A stretch of 33,290 bases of DNA from an uncultured Clostridia bacterium (lineage in GTDB: Bacteria; Bacillota; Clostridia; TANB77; CAG-508): NCBI GenBank assembly GCA_944392175.1, contig CALXVT010000015.1:1-33290 (forward strand). The letters run 5' to 3'. Of this stretch, positions 5,141 to 26,221 are shown piece by piece. Within the stretch, counting starts at the first letter, position 1. Every line of letters begins with the position of its first letter. The notes beneath the pieces were generated by a model. That model was not told the DNA's origin and did no database searches. It was given only the letters and a program-made list of their open reading frames with translations. A program made the position numbers and the translations under genes.

Positions 5141-5170
5141 TATATTTTTGCATATAAAAATATTATTCTA

Positions 5171-5213
5171 AAAAACTATTGGGAGTGATTCTTAACCACT
5201 CCCAATAGTTTTT
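5171..5213 (-). terminator. Intrinsic terminator of the 592-aa gene
   Basis: Perfect 17-bp stem (5171-5187 with 5197-5213) with a nine-base loop, followed on the minus strand by TTTTTT-like sequence. The stem begins within the stop codon of the 592-aa gene. Confidence 0.85.
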
Positions 5214-6990
5214 ACTCTTTACTTTCTTCAAGAATTTTAGCCTTTTCTTCATCTGTCAGGCTATCCCATTCCTCTTCTGTTTTTTCCGGATCAACCTCTG
5301 TTATATTATTCGAATCTCCTTCTAAAACAGATTCTGAATTCATCTCATCTTTCTTTTGCTGGTCTTCTGACTTTTGCTGAGTAAACTCCAAATTGTCAAA
5401 TTTAGCAACATCTACTGTACCATTTTTATCATCTATAAATGATAATTTTACATTATCTCCCTCCCTTGTTATTGGAAGCTCTTCTGATAATGTACCACTG
5501 GCTACATACAACTTAGTTCTATCATCATTGATAATAATGTAATAAGTTGTATTTCCGCCTTGAATATCAGCAGAAATTCGTGTTATCTTTCCTTCTATAT
5601 TGTAAAGATAGCTTTCATCACTGCCTATTACAGTATCATTTCCTCCATTCAGTACAGCACTTATATACGCTTTTTGTAGTTGATCAATATTTTCTCCAGT
5701 TGCTACTATCGCATAATTTTCTATGTTGACCATAGCATATGCTTTAATTAATCCAGCTTTATCTTTTAATGTCATGAAATACGTAGGTATCCCTTGTACA
5801 TTAATTGGAACTGGAAGAGTTGCATTATAATTCTTTTCTTGTACTTTTCCTTCAGCACTGCCTTGTGCAGCTTCTTCTGTTGCACCTTCCATTTCAAAGA
5901 ATTTTGCTTCTTTCGTTCGAGTATTTACCATGATGAAACCTGTTGTAGCATCATCATTTCCAACAGATGTCATTCCTGTATAATAATAGCAATCACCGTC
6001 ATTATATACAGTAAGAAGCCCCGGTGTAACTTCAATTACACCATCTTTTCCAAATAATGAATTCTTAAAGCCTTGCTCGTATTTACCATAATCATCAATT
6101 TGTTCCTCAATAAAATCATCTGGCTGAATTTTATCAATCCATTCTGGAGCATCCTCTACAGAATACCATATACATTCTCCCGTTTGAGGATCACATACTA
6201 TAACTCCAGTTGCATCAGGATAATTCCATGTTCCCGTATTTTTATACGTTGTAATAGTCCAATATGGATTACCTTCTTCATCTAATTCAAATGTCATATC
6301 TGATAATCCTTCTGTCCTATATCCACAGCTCCTAATATGTCTAAATAAATCATCACCAAAATATCCAGACTTTATATACCGGAGTTGAATATCTTTTCCA
6401 TTTATCTCCTGTACTAGTTCTACATCATTCGGATCAGTTGCTGAAACTTTAACATATCCCGGAGTTGTTTTATTAGAAAACCATTTCCAAAAAAATCCCT
6501 CATGTTCCAATGGAGCTACATAAACGAGCTCTCCGTTTACCTGTTGTAAAGTAAATTTGCCTACATCCACTTGTGAGCCCAGACCTCTTTCAGCTCCAAG
6601 TTTTTTATTTGCTTGTTTCAATGCTAAATCAGCATCTACAATAGGAATTTGAGTATTATCAATTGGAATAATACTATCCTCAAAAGATGTTTCTTCAACT
6701 TCTCCTATCATTGAATATGCCTTTTTAGCATTAAAAATGTCTGAGCTAAATAATATAATGAGCAAACATACTATTGATAGTGCCGCTCCTGCAGAAATTA
6801 TATAAATATTTAATTTATATGTATTGTAGTATATTATTAGTTCAGCCAAGGCCAACTCAATAATTATGAATATGAACCATGTTATTGCACCATCTTTATA
6901 TGCTGGTGATAAATTGAACTGTATAAAATAATACAGTATAGTAAAAAATACTACAGGTAATGCAAACAACCAAATTTGAGTTTTTTTCAT
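5212..6990 (-). CDS. Large membrane-anchored protein of unknown function (592 aa)
   Basis: Not recognised. Three hydrophobic segments occupy about residues 7-25, 35-55 and 61-82. A long soluble region follows (about 95-520), rich in Gly, Tyr, Asp and aromatic residues, with stretches such as QVDVGKFTLQQVNGELVYVAPLEH that recall PepSY-like or other secreted beta-rich modules. The last 60 residues are a Glu/Lys/Asp/Ser-rich, probably disordered tail ending in EEKAKILEESKE. The start is supported by GAGGG about eight bases upstream. It has its own promoter (7115-7143), a leader of about 115 bases with alternative hairpins (7070-7107), and a strong terminator. Codon use is visibly less A+T-biased than in the neighbouring core genes. 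It separates prkC from the rsgA-rpe group that is adjacent in relatives, so it may be an acquired insertion. Confidence 0.75.
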   Translation of the reverse strand: MKKTQIWLFALPVVFFTILYYFIQFNLSPAYKDGAITWFIFIIIELALAELIIYYNTYKLNIYIISAGAALSIVCLLIILFSSDIFNAKKAYSMIGEVEETSFEDSIIPIDNTQIPIVDADLALKQANKKLGAERGLGSQVDVGKFTLQQVNGELVYVAPLEHEGFFWKWFSNKTTPGYVKVSATDPNDVELVQEINGKDIQLRYIKSGYFGDDLFRHIRSCGYRTEGLSDMTFELDEEGNPYWTITTYKNTGTWNYPDATGVIVCDPQTGECIWYSVEDAPEWIDKIQPDDFIEEQIDDYGKYEQGFKNSLFGKDGVIEVTPGLLTVYNDGDCYYYTGMTSVGNDDATTGFIMVNTRTKEAKFFEMEGATEEAAQGSAEGKVQEKNYNATLPVPINVQGIPTYFMTLKDKAGLIKAYAMVNIENYAIVATGENIDQLQKAYISAVLNGGNDTVIGSDESYLYNIEGKITRISADIQGGNTTYYIIINDDRTKLYVASGTLSEELPITREGDNVKLSFIDDKNGTVDVAKFDNLEFTQQKSEDQQKKDEMNSESVLEGDSNNITEVDPEKTEEEWDSLTDEEKAKILEESKE

Positions 6991-7069
6991 AAATTTGCCC
7001 TCTTCTTTCTTTTTGTTCTACTCGTGTTTAAGTTGCATAAATTTCTTGAATAAATAAAAAGCCTCCCTT

Positions 7070-7107
7070 CTTATAGTTAATGTACTATAAGATTTTTTAC
7101 AGTACAT
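7070..7107 (-). promoter_or_regulatory. Overlapping dyads in the leader of the 592-aa gene
   Basis: CTTATAGT (7070-7077) and ACTATAAG (7084-7091) form a perfect 8-bp inverted repeat. ATGTACT (7080-7086) and AGTACAT (7101-7107) form another. The two share bases and cannot both fold. They lie at and just after the expected transcription start, so they could be an operator or a small RNA switch. Confidence 0.5.
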
Positions 7108-7114
7108 GCATATT

Positions 7115-7143
7115 ATTATATCACAATTTGCCCTGTTCGTCAT
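7115..7143 (-). promoter_or_regulatory. Promoter of the 592-aa gene
   Basis: TGATATAAT (extended -10, hexamer at 7115-7120) with ATGACG 17 bases upstream (7138-7143). It points at the 592-aa gene. Confidence 0.65.
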
Positions 7144-7163
7144 TATGTTAATTACGTTTTTGT

Positions 7164-7208
7164 AAAAAAGTGGCTCCTCCATATGTACAGATTGCTTCTC
7201 AATCGCAC
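7164..7208 (-). repeat. Copy B of the duplicated two-hairpin element
   Basis: The minus strand reads GTGCGATTG, a loop, CAATCTGTAC, ATATGGAGG, AGCCACTTTTTTA. It matches the element at 2803-2847 over about 43 bases with few differences; GATTG/CAATC can pair. It lies in the gene-free stretch between prkC and the 592-aa gene. Confidence 0.6.
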
Positions 7209-7210
7209 GG

Positions 7211-7259
7211 GTATATGTAACTTAACCTTGTTGTATACGTAAAAATTTGGCGATTTTTC
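7211..7259 (-). repeat. Dispersed intergenic repeat, copy 1
   Basis: The minus strand contains AAAAATCGCCAAATTTTT followed by GTATACAACAAGGTTAAGTT. It resembles 24664-24705 (AAAAATCTGCCGATTTT, then ATATAACAAGGTTAGGAT). The A/T-rich arms can form a hairpin around GCC. Function unknown. Confidence 0.4.
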
Positions 7260-7271
7260 ATATACAAGAAC

Positions 7272-7322
7272 AAAAGGGGCATGATTAAAGTTTTATGACC
7301 TTTTAAATAACTTACATGCCCC
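7272..7322 (-). terminator. Hairpin with T-tract in the prkC / 592-aa gene intergenic region
   Basis: GGGGCATG (7276-7283) pairs with CATGCCCC (7315-7322); TAA(A)GTT / AACTTA can extend the stem inward. On the minus strand the stem is followed by TTTTGTTCTT, so it could end a small transcript or read-through from prkC. Confidence 0.45.
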
Positions 7323-7462
7323 GTCTTTCCATAGTATAACTTATCTGTAGCTTGCTTTGCTTCTCACAACTAAGAAATGTTCGTCGCCAAAATTGCACAG
7401 CAATTTTGTGTGAAATTTATTTATATAATTGGGATGTTCGGAGAACTTTCCTATTATATAAA
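7323..7462. other. Gene-free stretch with a perfect hairpin at 7388-7408
   Basis: Part of the 512-base gap between prkC and the 592-aa gene. I find no convincing reading frame. CAAAATTGC / GCAATTTTG (7388-7396 with 7400-7408, loop ACA) is a perfect 9-bp hairpin. The G+C level is higher than in other gaps here, and the segment could belong to a structured RNA ending at 7272. I could not match it to a known class. Confidence 0.4.
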
Positions 7463-7491
7463 AAAGAAGTAAGTATATTACCTACTTCTTT
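7463..7491 (-). terminator. Terminator of the rlmN-prpC-prkC operon
   Basis: AAAGAAGTA (7463-7471) pairs with TACTTCTTT (7483-7491); the minus strand then reads TTTTTTATAT. It begins 12 bases past the prkC stop codon. Confidence 0.75.
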
Positions 7492-7502
7492 AAAAAATTC
7501 TA

Positions 7503-9482
7503 TTAGCTAAATGTTACTGTATTATTTCCTGATTTTACTTCATAATTAGGTTTCTCTGTAGAATATATAGTTTCCTTTGTCTCAGAATCTATTATTTCTA
7601 AAGTAATTGTTAATTTGCTACCAACTTTTCCAGATAATTTTATATCATTGAAATTAGTATTACTTTTACTTACATTTCCTCTAGTTTCATTATTAACTTT
7701 TACTGTTACCGTACCAACTTCTGAATCTTCATCATCGCCTTCTGATGGAGCATATTTTTTTATAATTTCATTAACATTTACAACTACATTTATTTCTTTA
7801 GTTTCTGCAACTTTATTTACTGTAATCGTAATTGTTGTTCCTTCTTCTACTTCTTCTCCTGCATCCTTGTTTTGTCTTAATACAACTCCATTGTCTTTAG
7901 AGTCATCTTCGTCATTAACAACATTTACTTCTAAGTTTGCAGATTCTAATAAATCTTTAGCTTCTTGTTCTGTTTTACCAACTAAACTTGGTACTTTTAC
8001 CATTACTATTCCTGAACCTTTACTTACAACAATTTTAACTACACTTCCTGCATCAATTTCTGTATTTGGATCAATATCTTGACTTATAACAATTCCAGCT
8101 TCTACTTCTTCATCATTTTCTTCTGTTATTTCTGCTGTTAAATTAGCTTCTTCCAACGCTTTTTCTGCTTCTTCTCTTGTCATACCTTCTACTTTTGGAA
8201 CAGTAGTTTTTTCAGTTCCTTTACTAACTACAACAGTTATTTCACTTCTTTCTTTAACCATATAGTTTTCTTGATATTCAGGATCTTGTGATATTATTTT
8301 TCCAGCTTCTACATCTGGGCTAAATTCTTCTGATCCTATAACAAGTTTTAAATTCAATTCTTCAGCAGTTTGTTCAGCCTCTTCCTTTGTCATATTAACA
8401 AAGTTTGGAAGTTCTACATCATCAGGAAATGCCATATTAAATATTAAACTAGAAACTCCAAATACTAAAAAGAATAATAATATCGCTCCTAATATTCCAG
8501 ATAAAACTTTATGTTTTAAAATTAATTCTTTAAATTTATTTGGTTTCTTCCCATTTTGTTCTCTAGCTTTTCTTTCTGCTTCTTGAATTTCTTGAGTCGA
8601 AATTCTTTGTGTAGCGGCATTCATATCTTCTCCAATTTGTACAAAATTTGCTTCAGGACTTTTTAATGCTTCATTTAAATCTTTTAACATTTCTGTTGCT
8701 GATTGATATCTTAAATTAGTATCTTTTTGCATTGCCTTCATTATAATATCATTTACTGATTGAGGAATACTTGGATTTAATTCTTTAGGTTCTACTGGTT
8801 TTTCTTGCATATGCTTTAATGCTACTGATACAGGCGTATCAGCATCAAATGGAACTCTTCCTGTAAGCATTTCATACATAACTACACCTAAAGAATATAA
8901 ATCAGATTTTGCATCTGTATATCCTCCTCTAGCATGTTCAGGTGAAAAATAATGAACTGAACCTATAGTAGTTCCAAATGCTGTAATAGTAGAATTAGAT
9001 ACTGCTTTTGCAATACCAAAATCTGTTACTTTAGCAACACCATCTTCTGTAATTATTATATTATGTGGTTTTATATCTCTATGTACAATATTATTTTTAT
9101 GTGCCATTTCTAAAGCTGATGCTATTTGAATAACTATATTTAAAGACCATTTCCAAGGTAAAGGTCCTTTTTCTTCTGTTATTATTTCTTTTAAAGTCTT
9201 TCCTTTTATTAATTCCATTACAATATAATAAAGGCTTCCTTCATTACCTACGTCGAATATTGATACAATATTAGGATGTGTAAGACTGGCTGCTGATTGA
9301 GCTTCTATTCTAAATCTTTTTATAAACTCTTCATCAGTAGTAAATTCATCTCTTAACACTTTAATAGCTACATATCTATTTAATACACTGTCTTTACTTT
9401 TATAAACAGTGGCCATTCCACCATTACCTATTTTCTCAATTATTTCATATCTGTTACCTAATATCTTCCCCTCAAGGTTCAT
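7503..9482 (-). CDS. prkC: PASTA-domain Ser/Thr protein kinase PrkC (Stk1)
   Basis: Membrane kinase that in relatives binds muropeptides or lipid II outside the cell and phosphorylates growth, wall and spore-germination proteins. The 659-residue product has an N-terminal kinase: Gly-loop GNGGM (19-23), Lys41 in VAIKVL, HRDIKPHN with Asp136, DFG at 154-156, and SVHYFSPEHARG at the activation-segment end. A membrane helix lies at about 327-349, followed by three PASTA repeats (about 355-425, 426-492, 493-562), each with the Val/Pro start and EEAE-type helix. An extra beta-rich domain of about 95 residues ends the protein. It follows prpC by 14 bases, with AAGGAGAG as the ribosome-binding site. 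Complete and unremarkable except for the C-terminal extension after PASTA 3. Confidence 0.96.
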   Translation of the reverse strand: MNLEGKILGNRYEIIEKIGNGGMATVYKSKDSVLNRYVAIKVLRDEFTTDEEFIKRFRIEAQSAASLTHPNIVSIFDVGNEGSLYYIVMELIKGKTLKEIITEEKGPLPWKWSLNIVIQIASALEMAHKNNIVHRDIKPHNIIITEDGVAKVTDFGIAKAVSNSTITAFGTTIGSVHYFSPEHARGGYTDAKSDLYSLGVVMYEMLTGRVPFDADTPVSVALKHMQEKPVEPKELNPSIPQSVNDIIMKAMQKDTNLRYQSATEMLKDLNEALKSPEANFVQIGEDMNAATQRISTQEIQEAERKAREQNGKKPNKFKELILKHKVLSGILGAILLFFLVFGVSSLIFNMAFPDDVELPNFVNMTKEEAEQTAEELNLKLVIGSEEFSPDVEAGKIISQDPEYQENYMVKERSEITVVVSKGTEKTTVPKVEGMTREEAEKALEEANLTAEITEENDEEVEAGIVISQDIDPNTEIDAGSVVKIVVSKGSGIVMVKVPSLVGKTEQEAKDLLESANLEVNVVNDEDDSKDNGVVLRQNKDAGEEVEEGTTITITVNKVAETKEINVVVNVNEIIKKYAPSEGDDEDSEVGTVTVKVNNETRGNVSKSNTNFNDIKLSGKVGSKLTITLEIIDSETKETIYSTEKPNYEVKSGNNTVTFS

Positions 9483-11322: not shown

Positions 11323-11390
11323 TGTTATAATATAAATTATATTGATTTTTACGAGCATAATTAGAATTTACATTATTAGAATTATGTTTA

Positions 11391-11446
11391 AAACAAGCCA
11401 AAAGGCGGGAACCTTATTATAGGTTTCCCCGCCTTTTGGCTTGTTT
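11391..11446 (-). terminator. Very long intrinsic terminator of the 437-aa gene
   Basis: A perfect 19-bp stem (11391-11409 with 11428-11446), a two-base bulge, and a further 5 bp (AACCT / AGGTT) around a six-base loop. The G+C-rich core GGCGGG is unusual for this DNA. It lies just past the stop codon. Confidence 0.85.
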
Positions 11447-11457
11447 ATAAAATTAGG

Positions 11458-12771
11458 TTAGGCTGTAATGTCCAGCTTAACCTTTCCAGCAATCTGGTCA
11501 CGTTTTGCAATGTACCTAAATACACGCATCACTTCCAATCTGCTGGAATATTTCTTGAGTTCACCGGCTGTAGTTTCAGTTTTTTCGGGAAAATACTGAT
11601 CTACAAATGCCTGCGTTCCGAGTACGCAGTTTCCGGCGCTATGACTGTCATTTATAGTAATAATCAAGTTATCCGGAATTGCTTCCAGAAGTTTTTCATC
11701 ATTGACCTTTGACCGCCAAGCTCTTGCTACGTAAAATACGTCTTCTCTTATTTTACGAGCAATTCCCTTTTTCACCTCCGCATACTGCTGTTTCTTATTC
11801 AGGAAAAACAGTAATTTTGGATCGGTAATTTCGAATTCCACGTATTTCGTGAAATTCAAATTTTCTTTAAGAAAGGCTTTAAATCCTTCCTTATCTGCGT
11901 CGGGAATGAACCGAGCAACTCGCTCAATTTCTTTGTCGTATGCAGTCTCAGAATTTTCCCATCCGACAATATGTGCTTCACTTTCGTAAAGTCTATATGC
12001 CATATTGGGACCTCCTACCTTCCAGCCTGCAATAGAGTCTGTAAGAGCTTCGCAGGGATCTTCCGGCAGTATTTCTGTTGCATATAGTGCTGACCCACCT
12101 ATGCGGGTCGTACGCACTATTGTTCCATCCTTGCATTTGGCAAGGTGGAACAACTCATAAATCCTTTCTCCCGGATAGCTTATAATACTCTCCGAAAAGA
12201 GATCGGTCACGAACTCCCATGGATTGTAACTCCATCCGAAAAAGTCATAGAATTTAAGTTTTACAACTTTTTCATATCTTGAACAGTTCTCTCGTACATC
12301 TACGAAAGTCTTTTTCAAGATACGAGGCTGCTCTTCGAGCGCCTGACCCGTCAAGAGCTTAGAAAGCACTTCACACATATTATTATAATAATGACAATAT
12401 ATTAAAGTGTTTCTTCCTACTCTCAAGACTACTGGATTGTTCTCCAGTAGTCCCTTTTTATCCTCTATGTGACTCTGGTAAGGGAGCATAATGCTCACAT
12501 CATCTGAAAGTTTTACCGGATACTGCCACTCATTGTATGTAGTATCTACCCGGTAATAACCCACGCGTATAAGCTCTCCACAGTTTTTTATGTGGCCTGT
12601 TTCAGAACATCCGGACATAGAGCGGTAGTATAACCGCCCGCCACACATATTGTAGATTTTTTCGTAGTCATACTCGTAATCGAGTAATTCTACGTTTCCA
12701 TCTTCTGTCGGAGCCATGAATAGGTATGTATCTCCGGATCTCCAACCTAATGAGATGTTTCTTTTGGCCAT
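11458..12771 (-). CDS. Unrecognised 437-aa protein, probably acquired
   Basis: Not recognised. The start is ATG at 12771 behind GGAAAGG; an in-frame GTG at 12795 lies upstream of that site and is unlikely. The soluble protein (no signal peptide or membrane segment) begins MAKRNISLGWRSGDTY. It is rich in Tyr, Trp and Cys. Segments worth searching are LKFYDFFGWSYNPWEFVTD, TRIGGSALYATEILPED, and near the end NDSHSAGNCVLGTQAF, a Ser/Gly-Asn-Cys-Gly-Thr motif that looks like an active or binding site. The gene is visibly richer in G+C than its neighbours and uses codons such as CGC, CCG and GGC that are rare nearby. It has its own promoter, a leader of about 170 bases and a very strong terminator, and separates clpX from rlmN. 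It could be a mobile cargo or phage-type gene; no function is claimed. Confidence 0.75.
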   Translation of the reverse strand: MAKRNISLGWRSGDTYLFMAPTEDGNVELLDYEYDYEKIYNMCGGRLYYRSMSGCSETGHIKNCGELIRVGYYRVDTTYNEWQYPVKLSDDVSIMLPYQSHIEDKKGLLENNPVVLRVGRNTLIYCHYYNNMCEVLSKLLTGQALEEQPRILKKTFVDVRENCSRYEKVVKLKFYDFFGWSYNPWEFVTDLFSESIISYPGERIYELFHLAKCKDGTIVRTTRIGGSALYATEILPEDPCEALTDSIAGWKVGGPNMAYRLYESEAHIVGWENSETAYDKEIERVARFIPDADKEGFKAFLKENLNFTKYVEFEITDPKLLFFLNKKQQYAEVKKGIARKIREDVFYVARAWRSKVNDEKLLEAIPDNLIITINDSHSAGNCVLGTQAFVDQYFPEKTETTAGELKKYSSRLEVMRVFRYIAKRDQIAGKVKLDITA

Positions 12772-12942
12772 AATTTTCCTTTCCCTACTACTCACTTAAG
12801 TGGAGTTCGTTCCCAAAACATAAAGTCGGCAAACCTTATGTTCCTGCTTCATTAGCGGGGCATTCCTTCTGTTTTTTATTTTTGTACAAGGAAAAATTCT
12901 CTCAAGAAATTCTATAAACTTTTCAATGTACATTTTTCACAT
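12772..12942 (-). promoter_or_regulatory. Long structured leader of the 437-aa gene
   Basis: About 170 bases between the expected transcription start and the ATG. AACATAA / TTATGTT can form a hairpin around GGTTTGCCGAC (near 12820-12845), and CACTTAAGTG is palindromic close to the start. The G+C level is high for this genome. I cannot assign a known riboswitch class. Confidence 0.45.
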
Positions 12943-12948
12943 ACATAT

Positions 12949-12977
12949 ATAATACCATAATTTTAGAGTGAAGTCAA
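12949..12977 (-). promoter_or_regulatory. SigA promoter of the 437-aa gene
   Basis: TTGACT (12972-12977), 17-base spacer, TATTAT (12949-12954) with TG at the extended position. The rest of the gap up to 13088 shows nothing further. Confidence 0.75.
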
Positions 12978-13088
12978 AAAAATCAGCTCAGGCTATTGAC
13001 TTATATATATCTGGTGTGATAAAATATCTTGTTTGCATTTAAACTCGATTATATGCGATAAATTAGAATTTTCATATTATAAGAGAAA

Positions 13089-15227: not shown

Positions 15228-16511
15228 TTATTTTATTTTTGCATTTTTTACTACAAATTCTATTGCTTTTTCTGTTTCTAAGCTTCCTTTTATGTAATTC
15301 TTTAATGCTTCATTTTCTTGTAATTCTTTCACATCCCTACCATAGTTTTTAGCCATTTCTTCTAATTTTTCTGTAACATCCTTTTCGTCTGCTTCTATTT
15401 TTTCAGCTTTAACTATTGCTTCAATTACTAATCTTGATTTAACAGCTTCTTTAGCTTGTTCTTCATAATCTTTTCTAAATTCTTGTTTTGTTTTTCCAAT
15501 CATTTGTAAATAACTATCTAATGTTAAACCTTGATATTGTAATCTAGATTTCATATCATTTTCCATGTTATCTATTTCTGTTTCTATCATTCCTGATGGA
15601 ATATCTAATTCTGTATTGTCACATACTGCTTTTACTGCTGCATCTTGTGTTTCATATTTTTCTCTATCTGCATTTTCTTTTTCTAATTTTTCTTTAATGC
15701 TTGCTTTTAATTCATCTAATGAATCAAATTCACTAACATCTTTTGCAAAGTCATCATCTAATTTTGGTAATTCTTTGTTTTTAATTTCGTTAACTTTTAC
15801 TTTAAATACAGCATCTTTTCCAGCTAATTCTTTTGAAAAATATTCTTCTGGGAATTTTACTTTAATATCTTTTTCTTCATCTTTTTTCATTCCAATTATT
15901 TGATCTTCAAATCCTGGAATAAAAGTATTGCTTCCTATTTCTAGTTCATATCCTTCTGCTTTTCCACCTTCAAATGGTTTGTCATCAACAAATCCTTCGA
16001 AGTCTATTACAGCAATATTTCCTTTTTCTACTGGTTTATCTTCTACTGTAACAATTCTTGCATTGTGTTCTTGCATGTGTCCTAATTCATGATCTATATC
16101 TTCATCTTTTACAGTATACTCTATTTTTTTAAGTTCTATACCTTTATATTTTCCTAATTCTACTTCAGGTTTTGTTTGAACTGTAGCTGTAAATATTAAA
16201 TCTTTTCCTTTTTCCATTTGTTTAATATCAAATTCTGGATAGCTTACAGCTGTGATTTCGTTTTCTTTTAATTCTTTATCATATTCTTCTTTTAGGATTT
16301 CATTAAAAGCATCTTCATAAAAAATATTTGCTCCATAATAGTTCTCTACTATTTTTAATGGTGCTTTACCTTTTCTAAATCCTGGTATATTAAAATATTT
16401 AGCTGTTTGAGCATATACTTTTTTAATTGCATTTTCAAATTTTTCAGCTTCTACTGTGAATTCTACTTTTAATTCGTTTTTGTTATCTGTTTTTTCTACT
16501 TTAATACTCAT
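15228..16511 (-). CDS. tig: Trigger factor (ribosome-associated chaperone / prolyl isomerase)
   Basis: Binds at the ribosome exit tunnel and helps nascent chains fold. The N-terminal domain holds the ribosome-binding signature GFRKGKAP. A FKBP-type isomerase domain spans about residues 155-240 (with GNIAVIDFEGFVDDKPFEGG and IPGFEDQIIGM), followed by the helical substrate-binding C-terminal domain. The length of 427 aa is standard. The gene is preceded by a strong promoter (16589-16616) and an unusual 5' leader with repeated ACGAAA motifs. Confidence 0.96.
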   Translation of the reverse strand: MSIKVEKTDNKNELKVEFTVEAEKFENAIKKVYAQTAKYFNIPGFRKGKAPLKIVENYYGANIFYEDAFNEILKEEYDKELKENEITAVSYPEFDIKQMEKGKDLIFTATVQTKPEVELGKYKGIELKKIEYTVKDEDIDHELGHMQEHNARIVTVEDKPVEKGNIAVIDFEGFVDDKPFEGGKAEGYELEIGSNTFIPGFEDQIIGMKKDEEKDIKVKFPEEYFSKELAGKDAVFKVKVNEIKNKELPKLDDDFAKDVSEFDSLDELKASIKEKLEKENADREKYETQDAAVKAVCDNTELDIPSGMIETEIDNMENDMKSRLQYQGLTLDSYLQMIGKTKQEFRKDYEEQAKEAVKSRLVIEAIVKAEKIEADEKDVTEKLEEMAKNYGRDVKELQENEALKNYIKGSLETEKAIEFVVKNAKIK

Positions 16512-21029: not shown

Positions 21030-22283
21030 TTATTCTCTTGGATCATCTTCTTTTGTTTGTTCTTTCATTTCTATTCTTGGTCTGTTTTCTTCTTTTTGTT
21101 TCATTTGGCTTCTTGCCTCATTTACAATGTCTATTGTAGAGTCATTTAAAGGAAATTCCATGAAATAATCTTCTGGAACTTTAAAATCCACACCTATATC
21201 TTTAATAAATTTTGTATGATTACTCCAATCCTTTGTATCAGTTTGGGCTGCATTTAAATAACTAGGGAATTTATCGATCCCCGGAAGTGGCTTTGGCACT
21301 TCATCAATTTCTTCTTTTCCATCTACTATATTTATTTCAGGTACATAAATTTCCTTTCCCTCTGCATCAAATGTAGCAATTAGATTTCCTTCTTTATCAA
21401 ATAATTCTACAATAACTTCTTGTGATTTTCCATCAATAGTTTCCCTGTATACCATATTCCAATCTATTTTTTTATAATACGTACTATTATTTTCCTTATT
21501 TACACGTTCTTCATATATTTTATGCATTTGTCCATTTTCTATATCTTTAATATTTTGTTCAATTTTTTAGCAAAACTTTGTATCTCCCTCTTTATATGTT
21601 TCTTCTATAATTTTAAAATTCCCTATAACATTCTCGTCTGTATCGATTATTGGCCCTACTTCTTTTGTATATTTTCTTTTATTTTCATAATCCGTATATT
21701 CTTCTTGATAAGAATCTTTATCTGGATTTCTTACTTCTTCATTCATTTTGACTCCAAACTTATCAACAATTTTTGTATCAAAATGATAATTAACTAATTT
21801 TGTATGTTTAAACATCTCATTTTCAACCATAGATAATACTTCTATTCCATTAATTGCATAATATGAATTTTTATTTCCATTTGGAGCAATTTTTTCTTTA
21901 AAATCAACTTTTTTGTTTCCAATTTGTACACTATCTTCTTTTGTCCAATCTTGTACCATATCTTTTAAATGTAAGCTTATATCTTCGATAATAGGTGGCT
22001 TTTGTTCTTCTTGATTTTGTTGAGCCTCAGTTTGTTTTTCAGCTTCTGCTTGTTTTTCAGCTTCTGCTTCTTTTTGAGCTTCTTTATCTAATCTTTTTTC
22101 TTCAGCTTCCATTTCTTTTAATTCATCTTCTAAATTTTCTATTCTTTTCTGTGCTTTAGCTAGTTCTTCAGTATTATCTGGCTTTACTTTAAATAATCCT
22201 TTTAGTCCATTTATTAAAGCACTAAGAATTCTACTAAATATATTCTTTTTTACAACAATTAAATCTTTATCTTCTTTGCTCAT
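21030..22283 (-). pseudogene. Coiled-coil protein interrupted by an in-frame TAA stop
   Basis: Two open stretches lie in the same frame. The first (22283 to 21567) starts at ATG 22283 behind GGAGG and gives 238 residues ending GDTKFC; a longer TTG start at 22298 is unlikely because it lies within the Shine-Dalgarno site. The second continues after one TAA (21567-21569) for 13 more codons before the next ATG at 21527 and then 164 codons to a normal stop. That ATG has no ribosome-binding site. Read through, the protein would be about 417 residues: a basic N-terminus, a coiled coil with AEAEKQ-type repeats (about 40-95), then a beta-rich region that continues without break across the stop. I recognise no family. 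It is either a nonsense-broken gene, a sequencing error or a read-through site. First in the operon with the 583-aa and M50 genes. Confidence 0.65.
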
Positions 22284-22491: not shown

Positions 22492-22531
22492 GAAAGAGAT
22501 AGACTTTATAAATATAAAGTCTATCTCTTTC
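22492..22531 (-). terminator. Terminator of lysS-cdd
   Basis: Perfect 18-bp stem (22492-22509 with 22514-22531) and a four-base loop, just past the cdd stop. A uniform T-tract is lacking. Confidence 0.7.
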
Positions 22532-22541
22532 ATATATAATT

Positions 22542-22931
22542 CTATATTTTAAATCCGTATGGTAATATTTCTTTCATTGTATATTCATTTACTTTATTTC
22601 CATCCAATGTATATATTTTAAAATCATCATCCACAAATTCGCTCATAAACTGTCTACAATATCCACAAGGCATACATTCTTCAATTGGTTCCTCGCCTTT
22701 TTTAGCTCCTACAACGGTTATACTTTCAAATTCTCTTTCACCTTCTGAAAGTGCTTTTGCAAAAGCTGTACGTTCACCATAAATTCCTTGTATTCCATGA
22801 TTCTCTATATTACATCCGGTATATAATTTTCCACTTTTAGTTCTAAGAGTAGTACCTACTAAGAAATTACTATATGGAGAATATGAATTAAGTCTAGCCT
22901 TTTTGGCCATTTCAATATCTTCTTTATGCAT
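22542..22931 (-). CDS. cdd: Cytidine deaminase with an altered zinc-ligand motif
   Basis: Pyrimidine salvage: deaminates (deoxy)cytidine to (deoxy)uridine. The 129-residue length, the YSPYSNFLVG start, GCNIENHG, and PCGYCRQF (zinc ligands Cys89 and Cys92) all fit the small tetrameric family. However, the family motif C-A-E-R, with the third zinc ligand Cys and catalytic Glu, reads YGERTAF here: Tyr51 stands at the Cys position and Gly52 replaces Ala, while Glu53 is kept. The codons are TAT GGT instead of the expected TGT GCT-type. Zinc binding may be lost or altered. It follows lysS by 24 bases with AAGGAGG before its ATG. Confidence 0.88.
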   Translation of the reverse strand: MHKEDIEMAKKARLNSYSPYSNFLVGTTLRTKSGKLYTGCNIENHGIQGIYGERTAFAKALSEGEREFESITVVGAKKGEEPIEECMPCGYCRQFMSEFVDDDFKIYTLDGNKVNEYTMKEILPYGFKI

Positions 22932-22955
22932 TCTATTTCCTCCTTAATATAATTA

Positions 22956-24443
22956 TTAATTTAAAGGTTTCATTGTTGGGAATAATAATACATCTCTTAT
23001 TGATGCAGCATCTGTTAATAACATTACAAATCTATCTACTCCTATTCCTAAACCTCCTGTTGGTGGTAAACCAATCTCAAGTGCATTAATGTAATCCTCA
23101 TCCATCATTCCTGCTTCATCATCACCAGCGTCTCTTGCTTCAACTTGTTTTTTAAATCTTTCATATTGATCAATTGGATCATTTAATTCTGAGAATGCAT
23201 TACCATATTCTCTACCACCTATAAATAATTCAAATCTTTCTGTAAGTCTTGGATCTGCTTGTTTTCTTTTTGCAAGTGGTGAAATTTCTACTGGATAATC
23301 ATATACAAATGTAGGTTGTATTAATGTTTCCTCAACATATTCATCAAAGAATAAGCTGACAACATCGCCTCTTGTTTCCTTTGTTTTATCAGGAATTTCT
23401 ATTCCTCTTTCTTTTGCTAAAGCTACAGCTTCTTCATCTGTATTAATAGTATTAAAATCTATTCCAGTTACTTCTTTAATAGAATCTATCATTGTAATTC
23501 TTTTAAATTTTGGTGTCAAATCAATATCTTGTCCTTGATATGTTATTTTAGTTGTTCCTAATACTCTTTTTGAAACTTCTGAAAATAATTCTTCTGTTAT
23601 ATCCATCATATCATTATAATCTTGATATGCAGCGTATAATTCTATAGAAGTAAATTCTGGATTATGTCTTATATCCATTCCTTCATTTCTAAATATTCTA
23701 CCCATTTCATAAACTTTATCATATCCACCAACAATTAATCTTTTTAAGTTTAATTCTGTTGCAATTCTTAAATACATATCTATATTTAATGCATTATGAT
23801 GTGTTATAAATGGTTTAGCTGTAGCTCCTCCAGAAATTGTATTAAGCATTGGTGTATCTACTTCTAAAAATCCTTTTTCATCTAAAATATTTCTTATTTC
23901 TTTTATTATTTTACTTCTTAATTCAAAAGTTTTCTTAACTTCTGGATTAACAATTAAATCTACATATCTTTGTCTATATCTTAAATCTGGATCTTTTAAT
24001 CCATGAAATTTTTCTGGTAATGGTCTTAATGATTTAGAAAGAAGTGTTACTTCTTTAGCATGTACAGAAATTTCACCTGTTTTTGTTTTGAAAACAAAAC
24101 CTTTTATTCCTATAAAATCACCTATATCATATGTTTTGAATGCTTTGTAACTTTCCTCTCCTAAGTCATTTATGCTTACATAACTTTGTATTTTTTCATC
24201 ACTATCTTGTATAGTACAGAAAGATGCTTTTCCCATTATTCTTTTTGCAATAATTCTTCCTGCAACAGATACATCTTTTTGATCATATTCATCAAAATTC
24301 GCTTTTATTTGACCTGCTGTTTCTGTTCTATCATATTTTGTAATTGCAAATGGATCTTTTCCTTTACTTCTTAATTCATCTAATTTTTCTCTTCTAACTT
24401 TCATTAATTGATTTATATCTACTTCTTGATTATTATTTTCCAT
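22956..24443 (-). CDS. lysS: Lysyl-tRNA synthetase, class II
   Basis: Charges tRNA-Lys. The 495-residue protein has an N-terminal OB-fold anticodon-binding domain (about 55-165, with [18 protein letters not shown]) and the class II core: motif 2 as [18 protein letters not shown], motif 3 as [12 protein letters not shown]. The frame is open up to 24488, but that upstream ATG overlaps the promoter -10; the ATG at 24443 has GGGAG six bases before it and gives the usual MENNNQEVD-type start. No T-box leader was seen. It forms an operon with cdd. Confidence 0.97.
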
Positions 24444-24476
24444 TAAAATCTCCCTTTCTACTTTTAAACTAGGCAT

Positions 24477-24505
24477 ATTATATAACATTTTTGTAATATT
24501 GTAAA
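24477..24505 (-). promoter_or_regulatory. SigA promoter of lysS-cdd
   Basis: TTTACA (24500-24505), 17-base spacer, perfect TATAAT (24477-24482). Confidence 0.8.
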
Positions 24506-24663
24506 CCTGTATTTATTCATTCAAGTGTTGGCATAATATACTTGATTTTCTTTTTTATAATTTAATTTTAGTAATGTGCTAGCAAATAATAAATGCATTT
24601 TGTCAATTGTTTTTTCATATCAATTGCGAAAAACTAATCTCTTGATTTGCTTGTCTATACATA

Positions 24664-24705
24664 GGTATCCTAACCTTGTTATATTTGCAAAATCGGCAGA
24701 TTTTT
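24664..24705 (-). repeat. Dispersed intergenic repeat, copy 2
   Basis: The minus strand reads AAAAATCTGCCGATTTT then ATATAACAAGGTTAGGAT, similar to 7211-7259. AAAATC / GATTTT forms a short hairpin. The rest of the gap (24506-24663) holds only A+T-rich sequence with no gene. Confidence 0.4.
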
Positions 24706-24717
24706 ATTGAACACTAA

Positions 24718-24750
24718 AAAAGCAAAAGTATTTTTAATACTCTTGCTTTT
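24718..24750 (-). terminator. Terminator of the 24749-26839 operon
   Basis: 15-bp stem (24718-24732 with 24736-24750, one G-U pair) with a three-base loop, starting in the stop codon. The minus strand continues TTTTTAG. Confidence 0.75.
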
Positions 24751-26207
24751 ACAAATCAACAACAACATATAATACATCATTAATATATTTAATTTGTATC
24801 TCTTCATCACTTGGATTCTCAAAATTTTCATCTACTATTTTCTTATCTGCAACCACTTTTTGTAATTTATCACTTTCATCCATATAAGTAGCTAATAATT
24901 GTTTAAAATTCCTATCTAATAAATAACATGAATTTCTAATAACAATATCTGAATATTTTCTTTCTCTTAACCTATCTCCATTTAATGTATAATATATTGC
25001 ATATTTTTTGACTTCAATCCCCTTATTTTCTATTTTTTCTACTTCTGTCTCTATTCTATTAACAAAATTTTTATCTATTTCGTTTGAATATTTAAAATCT
25101 TTAGTTTTATCAAATGTATTAATAATATTAACTATAAAATATGATATTAATATAATAGTAATCAAAGTCCTAAAAATTTTAGTTTTTTCATATATATTAG
25201 TATTACATAATATATAAATAAATAATGCGCTTATACATTCACCAATAGGTAAAGTTGTTCTTCCCATAAAACTGAACGGAATCATTATTATATTACTTAA
25301 TGCGTATACATTAAATAATACAAATAATTCTATAGACTTATCTACTTTTTTGTATTTAATACCATAAATAAATACAATAATAATTAGAATAAAATTAATA
25401 ATAAACCATAGATAATTATAAAAAAATCCTAAATTATTGGTATATATTTCGATTACTCTTTTTAATCTACTAATTAATCGTGTCTTTGTTAGTATTCCAT
25501 TTACTCGGTTTGTCATATTTAATTTTGTGAAAAATGGTACTAAAAGAACTATAAGAATATTTATTAATGCAACACTAATTATAATTACTGCCGCTGGCAA
25601 TATTTTTTTAATAAATTCTTTATTTAACTTTTTATTTTCTAATAAGCATACCAAAAATGCTGTAACCACATAAACAGTTATAGTTCCATTATAAAATAGT
25701 ACGCCAAGCAAAGCATATATAAAACCCTTTTTTCTATTTTGTTTTATAATTGTATGTTTAATTGATAATACATAAAATAAAATACTTATGGATATAGCAA
25801 AGGATTCAATAAATTGCATAACATCAACTTGCATAAAATTAAAAACATATAAAAAACTAATTAAAAACATTAAAATTTTTAATCCTTTTTTTTCAACTTT
25901 TTTATAGTACTGAATAATTTCATACAATTTTAGCACAATTATTGAACAAATAAGAACCGCAAGACTTAATGCAATAAAATAAGTAATTTCATAAGGTGGA
26001 TTAATAAGTCCCAGCGGTCCGTATTATTAATGCTAGAAATAATCTTCCATCTCTAATATAAGCATCCTTCAAAGCATAATCCGTATATCCTTGTGATTCA
26101 ATCCTATATGTATCTAAGGAATAATACCCTTGAAAAAATAATAAATAACTAATTATTCCAATTACTAATGAACATACTATAATTATAACTTTTTCCTTCG
26201 TTTTCAT
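24749..26207 (-). pseudogene. Frameshifted multi-pass membrane protein, GtrII-glucosyltransferase-like
   Basis: A first frame from ATG 26207 (AGAGGA upstream) encodes about 65 residues with a membrane helix and SLDTYRIESQGYTDYALKDA, followed by RDGRLFLALIIRTAG, then shifts into a stop at 26001. Removing one G from GGG at 26010-26012 joins it in frame with GLINPPYEITYFIALS and the long second frame (ending 24749), giving about 485 residues. The total length of 1459 bases is one base more than a multiple of three, as expected. The joined protein has about ten to eleven helices and a soluble C-terminal tail. The Asp-Gly-Arg motif after the first helix and overall layout recall GtrII-type glucosyltransferases of surface glycans, from memory only. 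It follows the 205-aa gene by 14 bases. Confidence 0.65.
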
Positions 26208-26221
26208 ATTAAATTTCCTCT

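Follow-up and report, generated by a model that had tools for sequence, protein, structure and literature searches.

The window, that is, the whole stretch of 33,290 nucleotides analysed here, carries on its minus strand a cytidine deaminase gene (cdd) in which the codon for the first zinc-ligand cysteine reads as tyrosine, and it is judged moderately probable, based on comparison with relatives, that this represents a recent missense allele crippling an otherwise ordinary cytidine deaminase. What is seen is one private missense substitution, confined to a single draft assembly, and no new enzyme type; the activity has probably been lost, provided that the letter is real. The gene and the codons on which the argument turns are the following, G010 being the genome that carries the closest homolog.

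22542..22931, minus strand: cdd, homologue of the homotetrameric-type cytidine deaminases (CDAs), 129 aa plus stop (ORF translation, family profiles and AlphaFold2 model)
22779..22781, minus strand: codon 51, TAT (Tyr), the two nearest relatives having TGT here (Cys, first zinc ligand) (sequence and alignment)
22773..22775, minus strand: codon 53, catalytic Glu, intact (invariant alignment column)
22665..22667, minus strand: codon 89, zinc-ligand Cys of PCGYC, intact (invariant column in 29 sequences)
22656..22658, minus strand: codon 92, zinc-ligand Cys of PCGYC, intact (invariant column in 29 sequences)
22683..22685, minus strand: codon 83, ATT (Ile), where the two nearest relatives have Thr; the sole other replacement relative to G010

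The translation of the minus-strand ORF at 22542-22931 (...CNIENHGIQGIYGERTAFAKAL...ECMPCGYCRQF...) truly contains Y-G-E-R, within the motif I-Y-G-E-R, so that Tyr51 stands where C(A/G)ER has its first zinc-ligand Cys. An earlier note on this DNA had claimed Y-G-E-R together with a retained catalytic Glu and retained PCGxC ligands, and the reading of codon 51 as TAT and the presence of Glu53, Cys89 and Cys92 bear this out. The same note described CAER as having become YGER; the Cys to Tyr change is real and its codon lies within 22771-22791, but the Gly is no change, as CGER is normal for the clade (L010, L011, L017, L022 and L057). The motif as published, C(A/G)E(R/C/T), likewise allows Gly after the ligand position (PMC9897663, in excerpt). 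A double change is thus ruled out by the closest relatives, and in the alignment Cys to Tyr is the only unusual change in the motif.

In all other respects the protein resembles its family. The ORF is intact, with neither stop nor frameshift, the N-x-E-N motif ahead of the zinc helix is present (N41-I-E43-N44), and Glu53 and Arg54 are kept, both of them invariant in the 29-sequence alignment. The protein is matched by the Pfam profile dCMP_cyt_deam_1 (PF00383; 43.5 bits, cut-off 25) and by the NCBIfam cytidine deaminase profile NF004064 (104.5, cut-off 74); for TIGR01354 it scores slightly below the cut-off (111.6 vs 113.65), which the sister gene of G010 exceeds with 117.2. The gene is an ordinary cytidine deaminase of a Clostridia clade, of the subtype NIENHGIQxxC(A/G)ER. 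In this subtype (22779-22805 in the window; L010-L028) the loop from N-x-E-N to the ligand Cys lacks one residue that the common subtype has.

The AlphaFold2 model of the protein displays the CDA fold with a mean pLDDT of 93.4 and a pTM of 0.88, and its length of about 130 aa fits the family; AlphaFold2 is not sensitive to a single substitution. By sequence, the proteins of known structure that match best are EfCDA and the Bacillus CDAs. EfCDA (8x6u, 8x6y) is the best PDB match in both sequence and fold (Z 21.6, rmsd 1.5 over 124) and, as read from an alignment shifted by one residue in that stretch, has Cys at the ligand position where cdd has Tyr. The model also shares its fold with Bacillus subtilis CDA (1jtk; Z 21.3, rmsd 1.6 over 124) and with its Cys53His/Arg56Gln mutant (1ux1; Z 21.4, rmsd 1.5 over 124). 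The B. subtilis enzyme is about 41% identical to the cdd product and shares with it the catalytic Glu and PCxxC, whereas it has Cys (the engineered His in 1ux1) at the ligand position and a loop before the motif that is one residue longer. The closest homolog, the cdd of G010 (contig CALYAJ010000006.1, L010), belongs to the same genus, is 98% identical over 129 aa, also lies beside lysS and has the same HGIQ loop and the same Gly-Glu-Arg, in this case as CGER; it differs in having Cys51 and Thr83 in place of Tyr and Ile.

How unusual the tyrosine is was examined by scans of genome collections. Cys occupied the position of codon 51 in 69/69 relatives, which were retrieved with peptide patterns that excluded this codon and thus did not select for Cys. 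The subtype motif with codon 51 left free gave 32 matches in 31 of 390 family genomes, namely 30 with Cys, cdd itself with Tyr, and one match without Cys (L109) that proved to be no deaminase; with Tyr fixed, the motif was found in one of the 390 genomes, the genome of cdd itself, so that no Tyr-bearing clade was found among them. For the commoner subtype, whose loop is one residue longer, the motif matched 194 of 391 genomes class-wide, chance matches included; when 30 loci from these matches were checked, 28 were CDAs by tblastn and all 28 had Cys. The sequence sets (69 relatives, subtype and commoner subtype) overlap in part. One class-wide match with Tyr in the column (G550:C6) is no CDA, as its ORF reads differently and, judged from the sequence, presumably encodes a nitroreductase; among the other matches listed, those without Cys resembled chance matches when judged by eye. 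The motif, searched as exact DNA with each of the two codons, had no match in the viral collection, and searches of open-licence literature brought up no report of a natural Tyr-bearing or inactive bacterial CDA. As read from these alignments, Tyr51 is private to one assembly, with Cys in both the nearest relative (98% aa identity, same genus) and the next (88%).

The pattern of substitutions dates the change. Relative to the sister gene of G010, cdd shows 14 synonymous and 2 replacement differences (C51Y and T83I; pN/pS 0.035). Polarisation with G005 as outgroup assigns 8 synonymous changes and both replacements to the cdd branch and 3 synonymous changes to the sister branch, and leaves 3 of the 14 synonymous differences unassigned. 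Neutral evolution along the whole cdd branch (8 synonymous) would be expected to yield about 33 replacements against the 2 observed, and with C51Y set aside the neutral share of the branch is at most about 14% at 95%, a constant rate being assumed. These counts indicate that cdd is a gene kept under purifying selection almost until the present, a pattern that rules out an old pseudogene. Two readings follow: a very recent loss of the Cys, or a letter that reflects a strain variant or an error. cdd shows no additional signs of decay. The Ile at codon 83 is also found in relatives L019 and L025, evidencing a variable position.

The catalytic Glu serves as the proton shuttle in homotetrameric CDAs. 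His can bind zinc, whereas Tyr, whose phenol is neutral, coordinates it far less well and is bulkier than Cys. The zinc of these enzymes is held by one Cys of the second helix and two of the third and, in the homolog CDA_F14, activity was abolished by EDTA, double and triple mutants of the zinc Cys to His were dead, and Cys53His combined with Arg56Gln left only some activity (PMC9897663, in excerpt). It is proposed that a single G-to-A change in one lineage converted the first zinc-ligand Cys (codon 51) to Tyr, while the fold and the remainder of the active site would have been kept. Once the N-terminus of the second helix lacks its thiolate, the catalytic zinc would be weakly held or absent, the bulky Tyr would lie in the metal pocket and little if any deamination would remain. 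The substitution would be recent enough to have left no time for additional decay. As Tyr donates less well to zinc than His and takes up more room than Cys, the protein is predicted to carry little or no zinc and to show little or no activity, and both have probably been lost. "Dead" may nevertheless be too strong a word, given the residual activity of the homolog in which a single ligand was changed (Cys53His with Arg56Gln). As to the earlier suggestion that the enzyme may have lost, or changed, its activity, a probable loss is well supported by both the 69/69 Cys and the published zinc-Cys mutants, while a change of activity finds no support, the Tyr being private to one assembly and accompanied by no compensating change.

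The most serious competitor to a crippling allele, less probable but with a real claim, is that TAT is not fixed: the letter would stem from an error in the consensus or the assembly, or from a strain variant in the minority that the assembler picked, in a population that encodes the normal Cys enzyme. A fragmented assembly of 68 contigs, 92.6% complete with 3.8% contamination, the draft is probably a metagenome-assembled genome, as are those of the nearest relatives; the change affects one base at a site that has Cys in every relative examined, in a gene otherwise under strong purifying selection, and an assembly error or a minority allele would give an identical picture. Against it, the 427-aa ORF at 15228-16511 differs from its G010 counterpart by 19 synonymous and 0 replacement differences, and a 243-aa and a 191-aa ORF by 2 and 1 replacements, respectively; such well-conserved ORFs, with 0-2 replacements, suggest a low base-error rate in the window. 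Other ORFs of the window, such as lysS and 21567-22283, are more diverged from G010. The uninterrupted reading frame of cdd likewise speaks against an error.

Far less probable is a pseudoenzyme or altered metal site that serves some purpose while lacking the third thiolate, such as a part in tetramers or the binding of nucleosides. Inactive deaminase homologs with roles of their own do exist, as ADAT3 beside ADAT2, and the ORF, ribosome-binding site and predicted fold of cdd are intact; however, no Tyr-bearing clade was found (1/390 genomes) and T83I alone accompanies Tyr51, which is no compensation. His45, the one nearby candidate in the motif for a substitute ligand, was rejected, as it is common to the Cys-bearing relatives of the subtype. 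It is very doubtful that the Tyr-for-thiolate protein keeps a role, whether by binding nucleosides without zinc or through a metal site of two Cys whose chemistry is slow or altered; if it did, it would do so in a lineage that probably lives on salvaged pyrimidines (OMP decarboxylase not found). Least likely of all is a working cytidine deaminase in which Tyr51 or a rearranged neighbour holds zinc adequately, for although the doubly substituted CDA_F14 kept some activity and the crystal structure of the equivalent B. subtilis mutant (1ux1) has an unchanged fold, Tyr occurs in none of the other CDA homologs examined and is a rare, weak zinc ligand in hydrolases.

The features flanking cdd are the following:

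22939..22944, minus strand: AGGAGG, a good ribosome-binding site for cdd (seen in the sequence)
22956..24488, minus strand: lysS, upstream of cdd with a gap of 24 bp (spacing and strand; order the same in G010, G005 and L015)
22492..22531, minus strand: perfect AT-rich 18-bp hairpin directly after cdd (fold)

The gene at 22956..24488 is taken to be lysS from the earlier note and from our reading of its protein. The operon with lysS proposed in that note agrees with the 24-bp spacing, the common strand and an order kept in three relatives, and the two genes probably share a transcript. lysS precedes cdd in three of the nine other sources compared (G010, G005 and L015); the remaining six gave no lysS match, some of them with little upstream DNA available for comparison. 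The hairpin is a possible transcript end, although a scan for consensus terminators did not call it. The lysS protein is only 79% identical to its G010 copy, vs 98% for the adjacent cdd, with the gene order kept, and this divergence possibly reflects allele replacement by recombination. Elsewhere in the window, three stretches (5168-7796, 11324-13085 and 24511-26220) have no aligned counterpart in G010; they lie between blocks otherwise collinear with that genome, where only about 330, 6 and 100 bases, respectively, stand in their place; they may be insertions in the window or losses in G010.

A search for a second cytidine deaminase, a check proposed in the earlier note, was run with PF00383 on the 92.6% complete draft and found none; the other three hits of the genome are, judged from their sequences, presumably TadA-, guanine-deaminase- and dCMP-deaminase-like. 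The distribution of T-CDA in the genus is patchy according to TIGR01354: in a set of 14 genomes, several of them incomplete drafts, 3 score over the cut-off, the genome of cdd just under it, 2 have only weaker matches and 8 have none. As most members of the genus seem to do without the enzyme, its loss is tolerable. OMP decarboxylase (pyrF) was not found in the draft that carries cdd and exceeds the cut-off in 2/14 genomes of the genus, with a weak match in a third, while CTP synthase, pyrimidine nucleoside phosphorylase, a protein of the PRK/uridine-kinase family and UPRT are present in the genome of cdd. This gene content suggests that the lineage is probably auxotrophic for pyrimidines and dependent on salvage; the cell keeps other pyrimidine salvage genes besides cdd.

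If the mutation is real, a salvage enzyme has been caught at the start of its decay in a lineage apparently devoid of de novo pyrimidine synthesis. Automatic annotation will name the gene cytidine deaminase while the allele is unlikely to work, so the presence of cdd is no good reason to include cytidine-to-uridine salvage in a metabolic model of this draft genome.

A separate observation concerns the same genome outside the window, where a 678-aa ORF (G000:C3, L158, 1495-3531, minus strand) encodes a fusion of a permease and a phosphoribosyltransferase. A literature search for a fusion between a permease and uracil phosphoribosyltransferase found no report. Residues 17-393 correspond to a uracil/xanthine permease (Pfam Xan_ur_permease) and residues 475-677 to a uracil phosphoribosyltransferase, and such a predicted transporter-enzyme would trap uracil as UMP on entry.
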